From IMG/VR virus record IMGVR_UViG_3300040806_000817, positions 1-30,079 of that record: a DNA stretch of 30,079 bases; one strand, given 5' to 3'. This stretch comes from a virus. The position numbers and the translations under genes are program-made. Positions 2,197 to 8,010 of the stretch are shown here, piece after piece (position 1 is the first letter of the stretch; each line of letters starts with the position of its first letter). Under the pieces are notes generated by a model. The model had not been told where the DNA came from, did not search any database, and saw only the letters and a program-made list of their open reading frames with translations.

Positions 2197-2562
2197 TTAT
2201 CGTCTTTTTCCAGTATTTTCATCTTTTTGTTCGGCCGCACTTAATACGACCAGACCACCTTTGTTATATGCTTGACCAATTACAACATTACCACGATATT
2301 TATGTGGTTCTTTGACGAAGCCATTACCAACTTTATCTGATGTTGGAATGGCAGAGGAGCAAGGAATTGAACCCTGTCTTACGGGGTTGGAGTCCGTTGT
2401 GCTACCGTAACACCTCTCCTCTTTAGGAACATACCCCATCTTCTTCAAATATTTCTGATGCTCTGCTTGAGCAACTTTCAACTTTGCGCTGGTCTTCTTT
2501 GCCTTGCGCTTTTTCTGATTCGTTGTGGTGTAAAACACCGGCAACATATGCATACCACTCAT
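2197..2562 (-). CDS. conserved phage protein interrupted in frame by a tRNA-Trp gene
   Basis: A 121-residue ORF whose two ends resemble one family of small phage proteins. The N-terminus reads MLPVFYTTTNQKKRK followed by a basic helix with an AEH..YLKK motif. The C-terminus has a HKYRGNVVIGQAYNKGG region, where relatives carry a Y.G..IIGI..MHK pattern. Codons 47-72 between them are the sequence of a complete tRNA-Trp (2349-2422) read as protein. The start at 2562 overlaps the kdsA stop as ATGA, and GCGAGG lies 8 bases upstream. Processing of the tRNA would destroy the message, so protein and tRNA compete for transcripts. Family resemblance is from memory; function unknown. Confidence 0.6.
   Translation of the reverse strand: MSGMHMLPVFYTTTNQKKRKAKKTSAKLKVAQAEHQKYLKKMGYVPKEERCYGSTTDSNPVRQGSIPCSSAIPTSDKVGNGFVKEPHKYRGNVVIGQAYNKGGLVVLSAAEQKDENTGKRR
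2349..2422 (-). tRNA. tRNA-Trp (CCA), inside a protein gene
   Basis: A 74-nt cloverleaf on the minus strand. The acceptor AGAGGAG/CTCCTCT is perfect, the D-stem is GTGT/GCAC, the anticodon loop CTCCAAC (anticodon CCA), the T-arm CAGGG-TTCAATT-CCTTG, with discriminator G and an encoded CCA. The anticodon stem has one A-C pair at its top. It lies wholly inside the ORF at 2197-2562 on the same strand, and about 2 kb from the main tRNA cluster. Confidence 0.92.
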
Positions 2563-3320
2563 AATATATGCCTCGCTATCTGACTTACTACATTCTCAAA
2601 ATCCATCAGTCTGACCATATTAGGCCCATCTGATGGTGCATTGTCTGGGTCTGGATGAACTTCAATAAAAAAGTTTTTCACGCCCATTGCGGCACCTGCT
2701 CTTGCTAGTCCCGGGACAAAATCTCTGTTACCACCTGAAGATCCGCCATTGCCGCCGGGCTTCTGGACTGCATGAGTAACATCAAAGACGATATCATGGT
2801 CAATGTTATTAAGCATATAATCAAGGCCTGTGAAATCAACGACCAGAGTGTTATATCCAAAACTGGTACCTCTCTCTGTGACCCAAACTTCTTTGGCGCC
2901 TTCTGTCTTAGTCAGAACACCATGCATATCCCACGGTGCTAGAAACTGACCCTTCTTAATATTTACAATCTTATCGGTCTTCGATGCGGCGACTACTAGA
3001 TCGGTCTGCCTGCAAAGAAAAGCGGGTATCTGTATTACATCAATATAATCTAGTTCACTAATAATTTGAACTTGTTCGACAGTATGTACATCGGTCAAAG
3101 TCTGGACATCATATGCATTCTTGATAAAACTGAATGCGGTCATGGTTTCATTGAAGCCGATGCCTCGTTTACCACTCATGCTAGAGCGATTGGCTTTATC
3201 AAAACTAGCCTTGAAGATATATTCAAAGCCATATTTATCACAAACCCGTTTACACTCTTCAGCGATAATTGAAGATGATACTGCATTTTCGTGTTGGCAT
3301 GGTCCTGCTATAATTCTCAT
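2559..3320 (-). CDS. kdsA: KDO-8-phosphate synthase (metal-dependent type)
   Basis: Condenses phosphoenolpyruvate with arabinose-5-phosphate to make KDO-8-phosphate, the precursor of the KDO of lipopolysaccharide. The 253 residues include the hallmark KASFDKANRSS, then QIPAFLCRQTDL, KKGQFLAPWDM and TERGTSFGYN, all known from bacterial KdsA. The N-terminal AGPC carries the Cys that marks the metal-dependent class, and the EVHPDP and SDGP motifs supply further ligands. It is somewhat shorter than typical bacterial KdsA (about 280). It sits in a coupled string of small genes (ATGA overlaps on both sides). This is a host-type metabolic gene in a phage, implying a Gram-negative host. Confidence 0.93.
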   Translation of the reverse strand: MRIIAGPCQHENAVSSSIIAEECKRVCDKYGFEYIFKASFDKANRSSMSGKRGIGFNETMTAFSFIKNAYDVQTLTDVHTVEQVQIISELDYIDVIQIPAFLCRQTDLVVAASKTDKIVNIKKGQFLAPWDMHGVLTKTEGAKEVWVTERGTSFGYNTLVVDFTGLDYMLNNIDHDIVFDVTHAVQKPGGNGGSSGGNRDFVPGLARAGAAMGVKNFFIEVHPDPDNAPSDGPNMVRLMDFENVVSQIARHIL

Positions 3321-3436
3321 GTGAGAATCTCAATGATTGCTACAACATAAAATAATGCAACTACACCTAATACGGATCCTACCATGAGCATTTCAATGTC
3401 ATCGTGTGTTTTCAAAAATTCGATAATTTTTTTCAT
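3317..3436 (-). CDS. 39-residue single-span membrane protein
   Basis: A very small ORF: a basic, polar N-terminus (MKKIIEFLKTHDD) and one hydrophobic segment (residues about 17-37). Its ATG overlaps the upstream stop (ATGA) and its own TGA overlaps the kdsA start (ATGA), so both junctions look translationally coupled; GGAGGC lies 8 bases before the start. The tight fit supports a real gene. Function unknown. Confidence 0.6.
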   Translation of the reverse strand: MKKIIEFLKTHDDIEMLMVGSVLGVVALFYVVAIIEILT

Positions 3437-3606
3437 GTTATGCTGCCTCCAATCGGACAAATAGTTTTTACAATCTTAAAAGGATCGTTGCTACGAAAGA
3501 TGTTGCACTGAAAACCTGTTTTGCGAGCCATTTTAATAGCCTGCTCAAGTGTTTTATATGCACCACAGGTATAACGCTGATTAATCAAGTACACTTCATA
3601 CAACAT
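3433..3606 (-). CDS. 57-residue hypothetical protein
   Basis: A small ORF starting MLYEVYLINQRYTCGAYKT, with a short alpha/beta look and four Cys. The start overlaps the previous stop by one base (TAATG) and the stop overlaps the next start as ATGA, so it is part of a coupled series 3983-2197. A GGAG motif lies just upstream of the start. No family recognised. Confidence 0.6.
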   Translation of the reverse strand: MLYEVYLINQRYTCGAYKTLEQAIKMARKTGFQCNIFRSNDPFKIVKTICPIGGSIT

Positions 3607-4165: not shown

Positions 4166-4178
4166 ATTTTTACCTCTC

Positions 4179-4236
4179 TTGCGAATCACTCTATCAACTT
4201 ACTTGTTAAATATAGCAGGATTTATGGAATTGTCAA
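4179..4236 (-). promoter_or_regulatory. sigma70-type promoter with GTGATTCGCAA leader element
   Basis: TTGACA (4236-4231), 16-bp spacer, extended -10 TGC-TATATT (4214-4209). The leader contains AGTGATTCGCAA (4190-4179) followed at once by GAGAGGT. It drives the run of small genes that leads into kdsA. The base order of spacer end, leader and ribosome site closely matches the copy at 6163-6219. Confidence 0.85.
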
Positions 4237-4254
4237 CCCCTTTTTTTTATTTTT

Positions 4255-5598
4255 TTACAATAATTCTTTATATTGGTCGATTGACATGCTACCCATTTTA
4301 GAATTATGGTCTGCCGAGATCATAGCCAGATTTTCATAAGTCGTCTTTCCACCCTCTGAATGCGCTACGATATGGCCGCCTTGCGCCGTCTTCATAGTCA
4401 ACTTTTCACCAGATACGGCACACTTGAAGTCCTGTTCAATAAGTTTTGCTTCACGCCACTCACGGGGAAAGAGTCTTTGTGGATCCTTTAATGTTACAAG
4501 ATCAAGCATGTTCACACGATTCAGCATCCACATCAGAGTTTCAAATATCGCTTCTTTTGAACGATGCTCACCCAATGTATCTTTGAATTGTTGACCTCGT
4601 GTTTTATTACTGTCAAATGGTGAAGTTTGTTGTAGTTCTTTAGGCTGCCTATCTAGAGGCAACGTGAAAGGTTGCAACGCTTTTGCAATAGCACAATAAA
4701 ACTCATCAATATCGTTGATCTTAAAGGATCCGTACTCCTCTTCCATATACATCCAGATACGAGTGAATAGAGAAAACTCTTTCTGATTCAGACCTTGTGT
4801 TTGATACCGTTTGCGGACCTCAGAAATATCAAGAAGAAAATTTAAGCACTTATTTACCTTTTCAGTAATTTTTTCCACCTCATCAGAATTTGCTTCTGAT
4901 TGATACATATATTCTAAATTCTTATCATCAGCGGAACCAAGCCCACCACCATCATAATAACGATAGAATATGCGAGCCACAATTTGATCAATTTTAAGGC
5001 GCTTATTGTCAAACTGAATATTCAAAAAGTTCTTTGGTTTGCCATCACGCTGGCTAAACTCAAATAGATTATGAAATTTGTTATTCACACCATGTACTGG
5101 TCGTACAGTATTTCTAACTGCATTGGCGATAGGAATATTGCCATATGAATTAAGCATCTCTTGATGATTGACATCAGTGGTTTTATTGAGAGACCGAAAG
5201 ATATGGCCAATATCCCAAACATTCATGCCCTTGCTATAAATGACAAATGACAATTCAGTGTTCAGAAAATGATCTTTCTCTTCCTTAGATAGATCCCGAT
5301 AAAACTTACCATTTACCCGAAACTTATTTTCAAAATATGATTTAATATACCGCTTTCGGTGACCGCCATCAATACTCTCATAGACATAATCACCGTCATT
5401 AACTTCATGCACGGTAATCTGGCCCAAATCTATTCCTATTAAAATAGAATTGATTATACCTTGAGCCTTTGTCTCACGGCTACCAGATTCAAAGGATGTT
5501 TCAGTATCAAGTCTCTGGCCTACCGGCTGACAATCAATCTCACCATAACGCAAAATAAACTCTTTGATGGTCATGGATGTTTTAGTGTAACTGTACAT
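4255..5598 (-). CDS. DUF262-HNH nuclease-like protein
   Basis: A 447-residue protein with two recognisable parts. Residues about 10-120 resemble DUF262 (the GmrS/ParB-like fold): VGQRLDTE near 26-33 and the diagnostic SIDGGHRKR near 75-83. Residues about 390-447 are an HNH nuclease: GGHIVAHSEGGKTTYENL then ADHN. This DUF262-HNH architecture is that of GmrSD/BrxU-type modification-dependent restriction enzymes, which use NTP hydrolysis and the HNH site to cut modified DNA. The start at 5598 has AGGA eight bases upstream. In a phage it might attack competitor or host DNA; that is inference. A simple homing endonuclease is less likely given the DUF262 domain. Confidence 0.8.
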   Translation of the reverse strand: MYSYTKTSMTIKEFILRYGEIDCQPVGQRLDTETSFESGSRETKAQGIINSILIGIDLGQITVHEVNDGDYVYESIDGGHRKRYIKSYFENKFRVNGKFYRDLSKEEKDHFLNTELSFVIYSKGMNVWDIGHIFRSLNKTTDVNHQEMLNSYGNIPIANAVRNTVRPVHGVNNKFHNLFEFSQRDGKPKNFLNIQFDNKRLKIDQIVARIFYRYYDGGGLGSADDKNLEYMYQSEANSDEVEKITEKVNKCLNFLLDISEVRKRYQTQGLNQKEFSLFTRIWMYMEEEYGSFKINDIDEFYCAIAKALQPFTLPLDRQPKELQQTSPFDSNKTRGQQFKDTLGEHRSKEAIFETLMWMLNRVNMLDLVTLKDPQRLFPREWREAKLIEQDFKCAVSGEKLTMKTAQGGHIVAHSEGGKTTYENLAMISADHNSKMGSMSIDQYKELL

Positions 5599-6147: not shown

Positions 6148-6162
6148 AATCAACCTCTCTCT

Positions 6163-6219
6163 TTGCGAATCACTAATCAACTTACTTATACAATGTAGCA
6201 GGATTGGCCAAAATGTCAA
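6163..6219 (-). promoter_or_regulatory. sigma70-type promoter with GTGATTCGCAA leader element
   Basis: TTGACA (6219-6214), 16-bp spacer, extended -10 TGC-TACATT (6197-6192). The leader contains AGTGATTCGCAA (6174-6163) then AGAGAGAGGT. The -10 and -35 lie inside the 3' end of the upstream peptidase-like gene. Confidence 0.83.
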
Positions 6220-6589
6220 CCCCTTTTTGCCATTTTTCTAAAATAATTTCTTGTTTTTCGTAAGCCTCAATTTCATGGGGACGCTCATAGTATGGCTTGT
6301 CCCAATCACTTTTACCACCACGCAAGTCTTGCACACAATGCACAACTTCATGGAAGATTGCAGTCAGCAATTCATCGCCCTGCAATTTATTATCAACCTC
6401 AATTTCAAATTCACGGTCACCAGTCTCAACTTGGTCCGCACAAATACCATCTAGTTTGGCAAATACTATTTCAAGGTCCACCTGTTTCTTCATTCTAGGC
6501 ATCAGATGTTCAAAAGCAAAGATAGCGGCATCCCTTGCGAGAGCCGCTTTCTTCTTGTTTCTAGTTCCTGTTACGTTGATATAAATCAT
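6182..6589 (-). CDS. HExxH metallopeptidase-like protein
   Basis: A 135-residue protein with the zinc motif HEVVHCVQD at about residues 81-89 and later acidic residues (RPHEIEAYEKQE) that could give the third ligand. This is the arrangement of small SprT/ImmA-like gluzincins; the exact family is not certain. The N-terminal half looks alpha/beta. GAGG lies before the ATG at 6589. The gene has its own promoter and an unusually long (about 200 nt) folded leader, so its expression may be controlled at the RNA level. Its substrate cannot be told from sequence; host or phage protein turnover is plausible. Confidence 0.72.
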   Translation of the reverse strand: MIYINVTGTRNKKKAALARDAAIFAFEHLMPRMKKQVDLEIVFAKLDGICADQVETGDREFEIEVDNKLQGDELLTAIFHEVVHCVQDLRGGKSDWDKPYYERPHEIEAYEKQEIILEKWQKGVDILANPATLYK

Positions 6590-6792
6590 GGTACCTCAGT
6601 AGTAGAAAACGAGGGCAGAGGGGAGAAATCATTCAGTGATTCTAGATTTCCAGCCTCTGTCACTTCCCTCTATTGAGTCCAGTCTGCCACCCAGTAAGCC
6701 TGAGATGGGAAACTCTGTCGGCCTTAGCAAAGCCTGTCGAGCGGGTCATTGTTGCTCTCTGGATCAGACCCTAATCCCTTCAACTCAATTAT
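6590..6792 (-). ncRNA. long structured 5' leader of the peptidase-like gene
   Basis: About 200 nt separate the predicted transcript start (near 6792) from the start codon at 6589, with no ORF of note. The RNA can form two adjacent helical domains. ATTGAGT (6789-6783) pairs with ACTCAAT (6678-6672), enclosing GGGTC/GACCC and CCCA/TGGG hairpins. Immediately next, AGAGGG (6671-6666) pairs with CCCTCT (6622-6617), enclosing GAAATC/GATTTC. The first domain starts at the very 5' end. This may be a riboswitch-like or protein-bound regulatory leader, or a free small RNA. No known class was recognised. Confidence 0.45.
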
Positions 6793-6798
6793 GTGTAT

Positions 6799-6827
6799 AA
6801 TATAACAGGCAAATTAAGCATTGTCAA
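6799..6827 (-). promoter_or_regulatory. sigma70-type promoter of the structured leader
   Basis: TTGACA (6827-6822), 17-bp spacer, -10 TATATT (6804-6799). The predicted start is near 6792. The -35 lies inside the last codons of the upstream gene (6814-7005). No GTGATTCGCAA leader element follows, unlike the promoters of nearby genes. Confidence 0.8.
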
Positions 6828-7005
6828 CCACTCTATTTAAGTTACTGAAAAATAAAGGTGTTTCTCCATCAAATCCTGACCCATTATTCAACTTTTTGCA
6901 ATGCGATTCGCAAGTGATTCGCTTATCAGATTTGAAGATATACTGTTGAGTAGGTTTTTCATAAATCTTATAAGTCTCGCCATGGCGTCTAACTTCGTAG
7001 TTCAT
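6814..7005 (-). CDS. small conserved phage protein
   Basis: A 63-residue protein starting MNYEVRRHGETYKIYE, with a beta-rich N-terminus and KKLNNGSGFDGETPLFF near residues 37-53, a pattern (KLN.GSGF.G.TP.FF) that I recall from short phage proteins. AGAGGGTATC precedes the ATG. Within its codons (6922-6903) lie two tandem segments complementary to the shared leader element. Function unknown. Confidence 0.7.
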   Translation of the reverse strand: MNYEVRRHGETYKIYEKPTQQYIFKSDKRITCESHCKKLNNGSGFDGETPLFFSNLNRVVDNA

Positions 7006-7079: not shown

Positions 7080-7817
7080 TTATCTCCAACAATATACAAT
7101 ATTAACCCACGCTCCCTTAGTTTCTTTTCTTGCTTCCACATTAGGGAAATGACTGTGCATCAAGTCCAAGATTTCATTATACTTGGTGTGATGTGGAATA
7201 TCATTCAAGTGAGCATGATGGAATTCAAATATCAATTGTTGTATATTATCATAATTTTTAAGGGCTTTCAATGCTTCATATTCACCACCTTCGATATCCA
7301 TCTTGACGATAGAAGGATTTACTGTGTCAATAACTTCATTGATATTGACACAATTAACTGTAGTAGTGTCACGACCACGCTTGGCAATAAGTGAATGTGC
7401 GCCCTTGTTCTTCTTAAGGTTGATAGAGAAGTAACGCTCTTTGTCATCGTTGCCAACAACAGCGAGATTATTCAAATACGCTCTATCTGCAACACCATTC
7501 AACTCTACATTCATCTTAGCAAGTTCAAAGTTCTCCTCTTCTGCTTCATATGAATGAACTTCTTTTGCACCACGCTTCAACGCATATGATGTAAACATAC
7601 CAATATTAAGACCAAAGTCAATGATAACATCGTCTGAAGTAATGTTCAGTTTACGATATTCGCCGGACGATACTTCACGCAACACGAATGGATCAGATGT
7701 TTCGGGACGAACATATGCTTTCAAGTCTTTATGTTCATGGAGTTCAAGTTCTGTGTATGTTTCTTCTTCTAAGAATTTTGTCAAATCACCTGCATATGCC
7801 ACATTTCTAATCTTCAT
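7080..7817 (-). CDS. FkbM-family methyltransferase
   Basis: A 245-residue SAM-dependent methyltransferase. The SAM-binding core starts with VIIDFGLNIGMFTSY (about residues 65-79; the family's DxGxNxG), followed by an acidic loop SYEAEEENF, and later VKMDIEGGEYEAL, the typical FkbM motif IDVEG-E. FkbM relatives methylate sugars or polyketides, often in surface glycan synthesis. The ATG at 7817 with AAGGAAG upstream is preferred over a GTG two codons earlier, which would be too close to that site. It overlaps the upstream small gene by 11 bases. Substrate unknown; LPS-like glycan or modified DNA base sugar are guesses. Confidence 0.85.
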   Translation of the reverse strand: MKIRNVAYAGDLTKFLEEETYTELELHEHKDLKAYVRPETSDPFVLREVSSGEYRKLNITSDDVIIDFGLNIGMFTSYALKRGAKEVHSYEAEEENFELAKMNVELNGVADRAYLNNLAVVGNDDKERYFSINLKKNKGAHSLIAKRGRDTTTVNCVNINEVIDTVNPSIVKMDIEGGEYEALKALKNYDNIQQLIFEFHHAHLNDIPHHTKYNEILDLMHSHFPNVEARKETKGAWVNIVYCWR

Positions 7818-8010
7818 CTTCACTTACTTCCTTTTTCTCCACATATAGTTGCTTGGGGCACCAGTAAATAGGGTCTGTATAAACTATCTCCGGCTTCTTT
7901 GTATTCTGACATTTGTACACACACATTCTTTCTTTATCATCACTATCTTTGTCAATATTTTGAGAAACCAGATTACAAGATATTGCGGCGGCTATTGCTA
8001 TTTCGATCAT
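7807..8010 (-). CDS. small protein with hydrophobic N-terminus
   Basis: A 67-residue protein: a short hydrophobic N-terminus (MIEIAIAAAISC), then a charged Cys-containing region and a very acidic tail. The Cys at residue 12 after a short hydrophobic stretch faintly resembles a lipobox, but the segment is short for a signal peptide. The start overlaps the gp41 stop as ATGA, so it is probably co-translated with the helicase. Function unknown. Confidence 0.6.
   Translation of the reverse strand: MIEIAIAAAISCNLVSQNIDKDSDDKERMCVYKCQNTKKPEIVYTDPIYWCPKQLYVEKKEVSEDED

Follow-up and report, generated by a model that had tools for sequence, protein, structure and literature searches.

Between the gene for a 63-aa protein (p63) and a gene for a 135-aa protein with an HEVVH motif, the DNA analysed here (hereafter, the window: a 30,079-nt IMG/VR virus record of an uncultivated phage) has a gap at 6590–6813 on the minus strand. 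An earlier note, made from the sequence alone, placed in this gap a folded leader with its own promoter that matched no known class. Does the gap encode a structured RNA, and if so, is this RNA a regulatory leader of the following gene or a gene in its own right?

The phage and the gene neighborhood

The window carries T4-type genes encoding DNA polymerase, a DnaB-like helicase, an SbcC-like protein, a clamp loader, a processivity factor, and a UvsX-like recombinase. The polymerase is at most ∼52% identical to polymerases of named records, the best relatives among these being marine virus single-cell contigs, cyanophages, and a Methylophilales phage. On the strength of these relatives, we refer to the phage as marine. 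This T4-like window also contains a gene for DAHP synthase, an enzyme of the aromatic amino acid pathway (2559–3320, minus strand).

As claimed earlier, the gap is the longest ORF-free stretch once small ORFs are counted. At the 60-aa ORF cutoff the gap at 3321–3605 is longer, but it contains two small ORFs, and hence the claim stands. The gene downstream of the gap had been described as metallopeptidase-like. The HEVVH motif is indeed present, but it is the sole support for this description, as Pfam and PDB searches with the 135-aa protein gave zero matches; two PHROG matches are both of unknown function. On the other side, p63 adjoins an FkbM-type methyltransferase gene (7080–7823, minus strand), which is missing at the corresponding place in two related contigs, L001 and L011. 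Given this variable presence, cargo seems to have been gained or lost on both flanks of p63.

The TTGACA-17-TATATT promoter noticed earlier was recovered with 11 of 12 matches and ranks first among the 14 promoter-like sites of a 3-kb stretch, where 9.1 are expected by chance. It is kept in L007, L011, L015, L022, and L095, a set of relatives of which some have the leader and others lack it. In the window, L015, and L095, the promoter ahead of the RNA is also the nearest one for the gene that follows. The features of the locus are listed in Table 1.

Table 1. Features of the RNA unit and its surroundings (window coordinates).
Feature	Position	Strand	Remarks
p63	6814–7005	−	63-aa protein upstream of the RNA unit; anchor gene in relatives
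Promoter	6799–6827	−	sigma-70-type, TTGACA-17-TATATT, TG before −10; predicted +1 at ∼6792
RNA unit	6608–6792	−	185 nt; starts at the predicted +1 and ends within the U-tract; missing from L011 as a single block
P1, 5′ strand	6784–6791	−	UAAUUGAG; begins at +2, pairs with 6670–6677
P2 hairpin	6760–6778	−	strands 6773–6778 and 6760–6765, loop AGGGUCU
Pseudoknot strand 1	6767–6771	−	GGGUC, within the P2 loop; GACGC in L015/L095
AGCAACA segment	6750–6756	−	invariant in the alignment; between P2 and pseudoknot strand 2
Pseudoknot strand 2	6743–6747	−	GACCC; GCGUC in L015/L095
P3	6713–6741	−	CUC/GAG (6739–6741, 6713–6715), GACA/GACA internal loop, GGC/GCC (6732–6734, 6720–6722)
P4	6687–6708	−	CCAU (6705–6708) with GUGG (6687–6690); one one-sided change only
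P1, 3′ strand	6670–6677	−	CUCAAUAG; CUCAAUUA in L015/L095
Second domain	6606–6670	−	terminator-like; GAGGG..CAGAGG/CCUCUG..CCCUC hairpin, then GUUUUC
135-aa protein	6182–6589	−	downstream of the RNA unit; HEVVH motif, start codon at 6589

Presence and absence of the RNA unit in relatives

The boundaries of the unit are seen in a comparison with L011, which is ∼94% identical to the window around it. Two adjacent bases of L011, 7944 and 7945, align to window positions 6793 and 6607, so that exactly 6608–6792 is missing. The 185-nt unit has a GC content of 50% vs. 39% in the window, in the top 1% among same-sized stretches. The near-identical contigs L001 and L002 have the region unchanged, while in L007–L009 and in L022, L098, and L100 the promoter runs directly into the gene, and no unit is present. 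The L011 indel by itself does not separate gain from loss of the unit; the patchy distribution implies either several losses or exchange between phages. Transposition was considered and rejected, as no target-site duplication was seen at the L011 junction.

Diverged homologues lie behind the same p63 promoter in L015 (10486–10790) and in L095 and L096; L015 and L095 are ∼95% identical across the unit. Instead of the one associated gene family expected of a riboswitch or an attenuator, the unit is followed by the HExxH gene in the window, by another small ORF in L015, and by yet another in L095. In the latter two, the HExxH gene is present farther downstream, past the small ORF. The small genes starting with MSL.. 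behind the unit vary in sequence and number (L095, from 2620; L015, 10800–11002).

Several other promoters of the same type are followed by short leaders of ∼40 nt, with GTGATTCGCAA..GAGAGAGG before the start codon. Shared by promoters here and in relatives, this sequence is possibly a common early-gene leader. Since the other leaders are only ∼40 nt long, a structured leader of 185–290 nt is exceptional in these phages. One promoter-leader stretch is repeated within the window at ∼80% identity (6157–6248 and 4174–4265, minus strand). In L022 and L106, predicted transcripts begin with TTATTGAGAG or TAATTGAGAG and do not contain the RNA element. Because these transcripts start alike, the 5′ strand of P1 may build on an inherited start sequence: it resembles the ordinary transcript start of the phage group, and a part of P1 may thus be inherited leader.

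Structure of the RNA unit

The earlier note had proposed that ATTGAGT (6789–6783) and ACTCAAT (6678–6672) close a 118-nt multibranch domain, and in the minimum free energy (MFE) structure they do. The 5′ strand of P1, UAAUUGAG, begins 8 nt after the −10 element in the window, L015, and L095 alike. These three also have in common the P2 hairpin, AGCAACA, UUCCCA, GGGUGG, the P1-closing ACUCAAU, and GAAGGGAUUA, the L095 copy of the last being one base shorter. P3 is longer in L015 and L095, and differs from that of the window. In the window, the MFE structure has a GAGC/GCUC hairpin where the pseudoknot would form, and hence the two compete.

The second domain also appears as a hairpin in the MFE structure, although for this 55-nt domain the pairing GAGGG/CCCTC plus CAGAGG/CCTCTG fits better than the AGAGGG/CCCTCT stem suggested earlier. 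The stem is 14 bp long in both L015 and L095, and a long tract rich in U comes after it (UUUUUCUUUUUU in L015), while the U-tract of the window consists of four U only. The second hairpin is thus terminator-like, clearly so in L015 and L095 and weakly in the window. A simple scan did not flag it in L015, where its loop region is long. This feature was missed by the earlier note, as were the pseudoknot that the P2 loop forms with a strand farther downstream and the all-or-none presence of the unit as a block. P1 and the second hairpin overlap by one base at most, and the ribosome-binding site (RBS) is not buried in the window centroid structure.

Compared with shuffled sequences, the window leader folds only slightly better (z = −0.9), its 118-nt domain and second hairpin having z-scores of −1.6 and −2.3, respectively. 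The whole L015 unit has z = −3.8, beating all 300 shuffles, and the L095 domain has z = −2.6. The case for an RNA structure therefore rests on the homologues; from the window sequence by itself, an RNA would have remained unproved.

To count compensatory changes, we used a padded alignment, A5, because the first MAFFT alignments misaligned P3. A5 is hand-fitted and N-padded, which makes it lean towards structure, and it comprises three sequences, two of which are ∼95% identical. In this alignment, 94.8% of cells in 33 pairs are paired, and seven pairs have changed on both sides, a number reached in one of 500 shuffles; when the partners are slid as a control, pairing falls to 28–49%. Changes on both sides affect three of the five pseudoknot pairs and four of the ten P3 pairs. 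One P3 pair differs between L015 and L095, G-C vs. A-U. By permutation of its letters, the probability of the L015 pseudoknot pairing at the fixed site is ∼0.002; for the window, where the site had been chosen, it is 0.03. Hence, within the limits of a hand-fitted alignment of three sequences, the covariation check suggested earlier reveals the compensatory changes expected of a structured non-coding RNA, and the diverged homologues support the reading of the gap as either a structured leader or a free structured RNA.

The window copy of the unit contains two short ORFs, linked to each other and to the next gene by overlaps of the form GTGA and ATGA. A coding role was rejected, as the frames are not kept among the window, L015, and L095: indels put the window and L015 out of frame with each other, and in L095 an ORF seen in L015 runs into a stop after an indel. 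Such a lack of a conserved reading frame is also what is expected of a non-coding RNA.

Search for known families and further members

The claim that the element belongs to no known class agrees with our searches of Rfam 15, run at the gathering score and at E ≤ 10: the window copy was unmatched even at the latter, and the L015 and L095 copies had only chance eukaryotic matches far below the threshold. Blastn searches of isolate phage and plasmid collections gave nothing. Five DNA-pattern scans of IMG/VR yielded, beyond close relatives, only L095 and L096 plus chance matches, and a pattern scan of 84,980 genomes yielded chance matches only, each of which was read singly. A covariance model, R1, was run on 99 records of related viruses, including nine of a named phage or marine virus, and found the known members only; two weak matches, at 15.9 and 14.2 bits, were rejected, as most of their core helices were broken or missing. 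The unit appears to represent a rare and new family of phage RNAs, absent from Rfam and known in three sequence types. As the large collections were scanned by patterns only, more diverged members could exist.

Possible function

We tentatively interpret the unit as a discrete phage RNA gene with an early promoter, a pseudoknotted multibranch domain, and a terminator, placed ahead of the HExxH-motif gene, and we hold this reading with confidence just short of even. The layout of an RNA gene is suggested by the promoter, the 5′ end sealed in P1, the compact core, and the end at the second hairpin. Moreover, as the following gene differs between copies, the RNA does not seem to be tied to one gene, and close relatives that retain the flanking genes dispense with the unit. 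Under this interpretation, the host RNA polymerase would transcribe the unit early in infection, and the 5′ end of the RNA would be immediately sealed in P1. The 118-nt domain would then adopt its multibranch fold with the hairpin-loop pseudoknot, and the second hairpin would stop most transcripts at its U-tract, yielding a stable RNA of ∼185 nt (∼290 nt in L015). The released RNA would act in trans on some target, and partial read-through of the second hairpin would supply expression of the HExxH gene. A more specific version, in which a new family of phage RNAs with a pseudoknotted multibranch core of ∼120 nt moves as a block among T4-like marine phages, sits precisely at the +1 position of an early promoter, and acts in trans on the host machinery during takeover, is possible but rather unlikely. 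Several points count against an RNA gene: the following gene shares the same promoter, as a cis-acting leader also predicts; the window U-tract has only four U; only three distinct sequences are available, two of them ∼95% identical, in a hand-fitted alignment that leans towards structure; and a part of P1 may be inherited leader.

A strong rival, which we consider a real though lesser possibility, is a cis-acting attenuator or riboswitch-like leader, whose pseudoknotted domain would sense a metabolite, a protein, or the infection state and thereby adjust read-through at the second hairpin and, with it, how strongly the next gene is expressed. All three sequence types have the promoter, folded domain, terminator-like hairpin, RBS, and gene in that order, the stretch from hairpin to gene being free of promoters, and the manA and wcaG motifs, candidate regulatory leaders in T4-like cyanophages, provide precedents (PMC2864571). 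However, the next gene varies between copies, the unit is absent from L011 and L007 although their promoter and gene are the same, P1 shares no more than one base with the second hairpin, and inspection found no antiterminator pairing that is possible in both the window and L015. A trans-acting small RNA is slightly favored over the cis-acting attenuator, although the data do not separate them. Processive antitermination of the HK022 put type is a weaker rival, and improbable. The nascent structure would stay on RNA polymerase and carry it past pauses and terminators of the early operon, which agrees with the position of the unit at +1 directly behind an early-type promoter and with the adjoining terminator-like hairpin, an obstacle that an element of this type would need to pass. 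Still, the pseudoknotted multibranch fold is different, there is a single copy per record, and in close relatives the same genes do without the unit. Finally, we give little credence to a passenger insertion or a short coding region that folds by accident. The chained ORFs and the insignificant fold of the window copy would fit it, but the frames are broken between copies, and both the compensatory changes and the exact placement at +1 would be unexpected for a passenger.

With its sharp boundaries, natural empty-site relatives, and compensatory changes in the pseudoknot, the unit lends itself to testing as an RNA whose ends are defined. Action in trans would make it a host-takeover RNA expressed from an early promoter, action in cis a new attenuator.

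Comparison with known systems

In the Pistol self-cleaving ribozyme, a hairpin loop pairs with a strand just downstream, and another hairpin follows. The unit resembles it in this local topology only, the P2 loop pairing with a downstream strand and a hairpin coming next; its joining segment is GANAGCAACAA, the long-range helix P1 encloses it, and Rfam gives no match. Identity with Pistol was therefore rejected. With terminator-controlling riboswitches, the unit shares the order of folded domain, terminator-like hairpin, RBS, and gene; unlike in these, its domain and terminator have no visible overlap, and the downstream gene varies.

For the HK022 put RNA, we know of neither such a pseudoknotted multibranch fold nor an attached terminator. 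It is similar to the unit as a structured nascent RNA right behind an early phage promoter, although put is lambdoid, whereas the unit is T4-like. The put RNA acts on the elongation complex while still nascent (PMC9378689).

The manA and wcaG RNA motifs come from T4-like cyanophages and marine metagenomes (PMC2864571). They differ from the unit in both sequence and structure, and their Rfam models did not match it at any threshold used. Few structured RNAs from T4-like marine phages are known to us; the unit and these two motifs are alike in being structured RNAs in 5′ regions of such phages.
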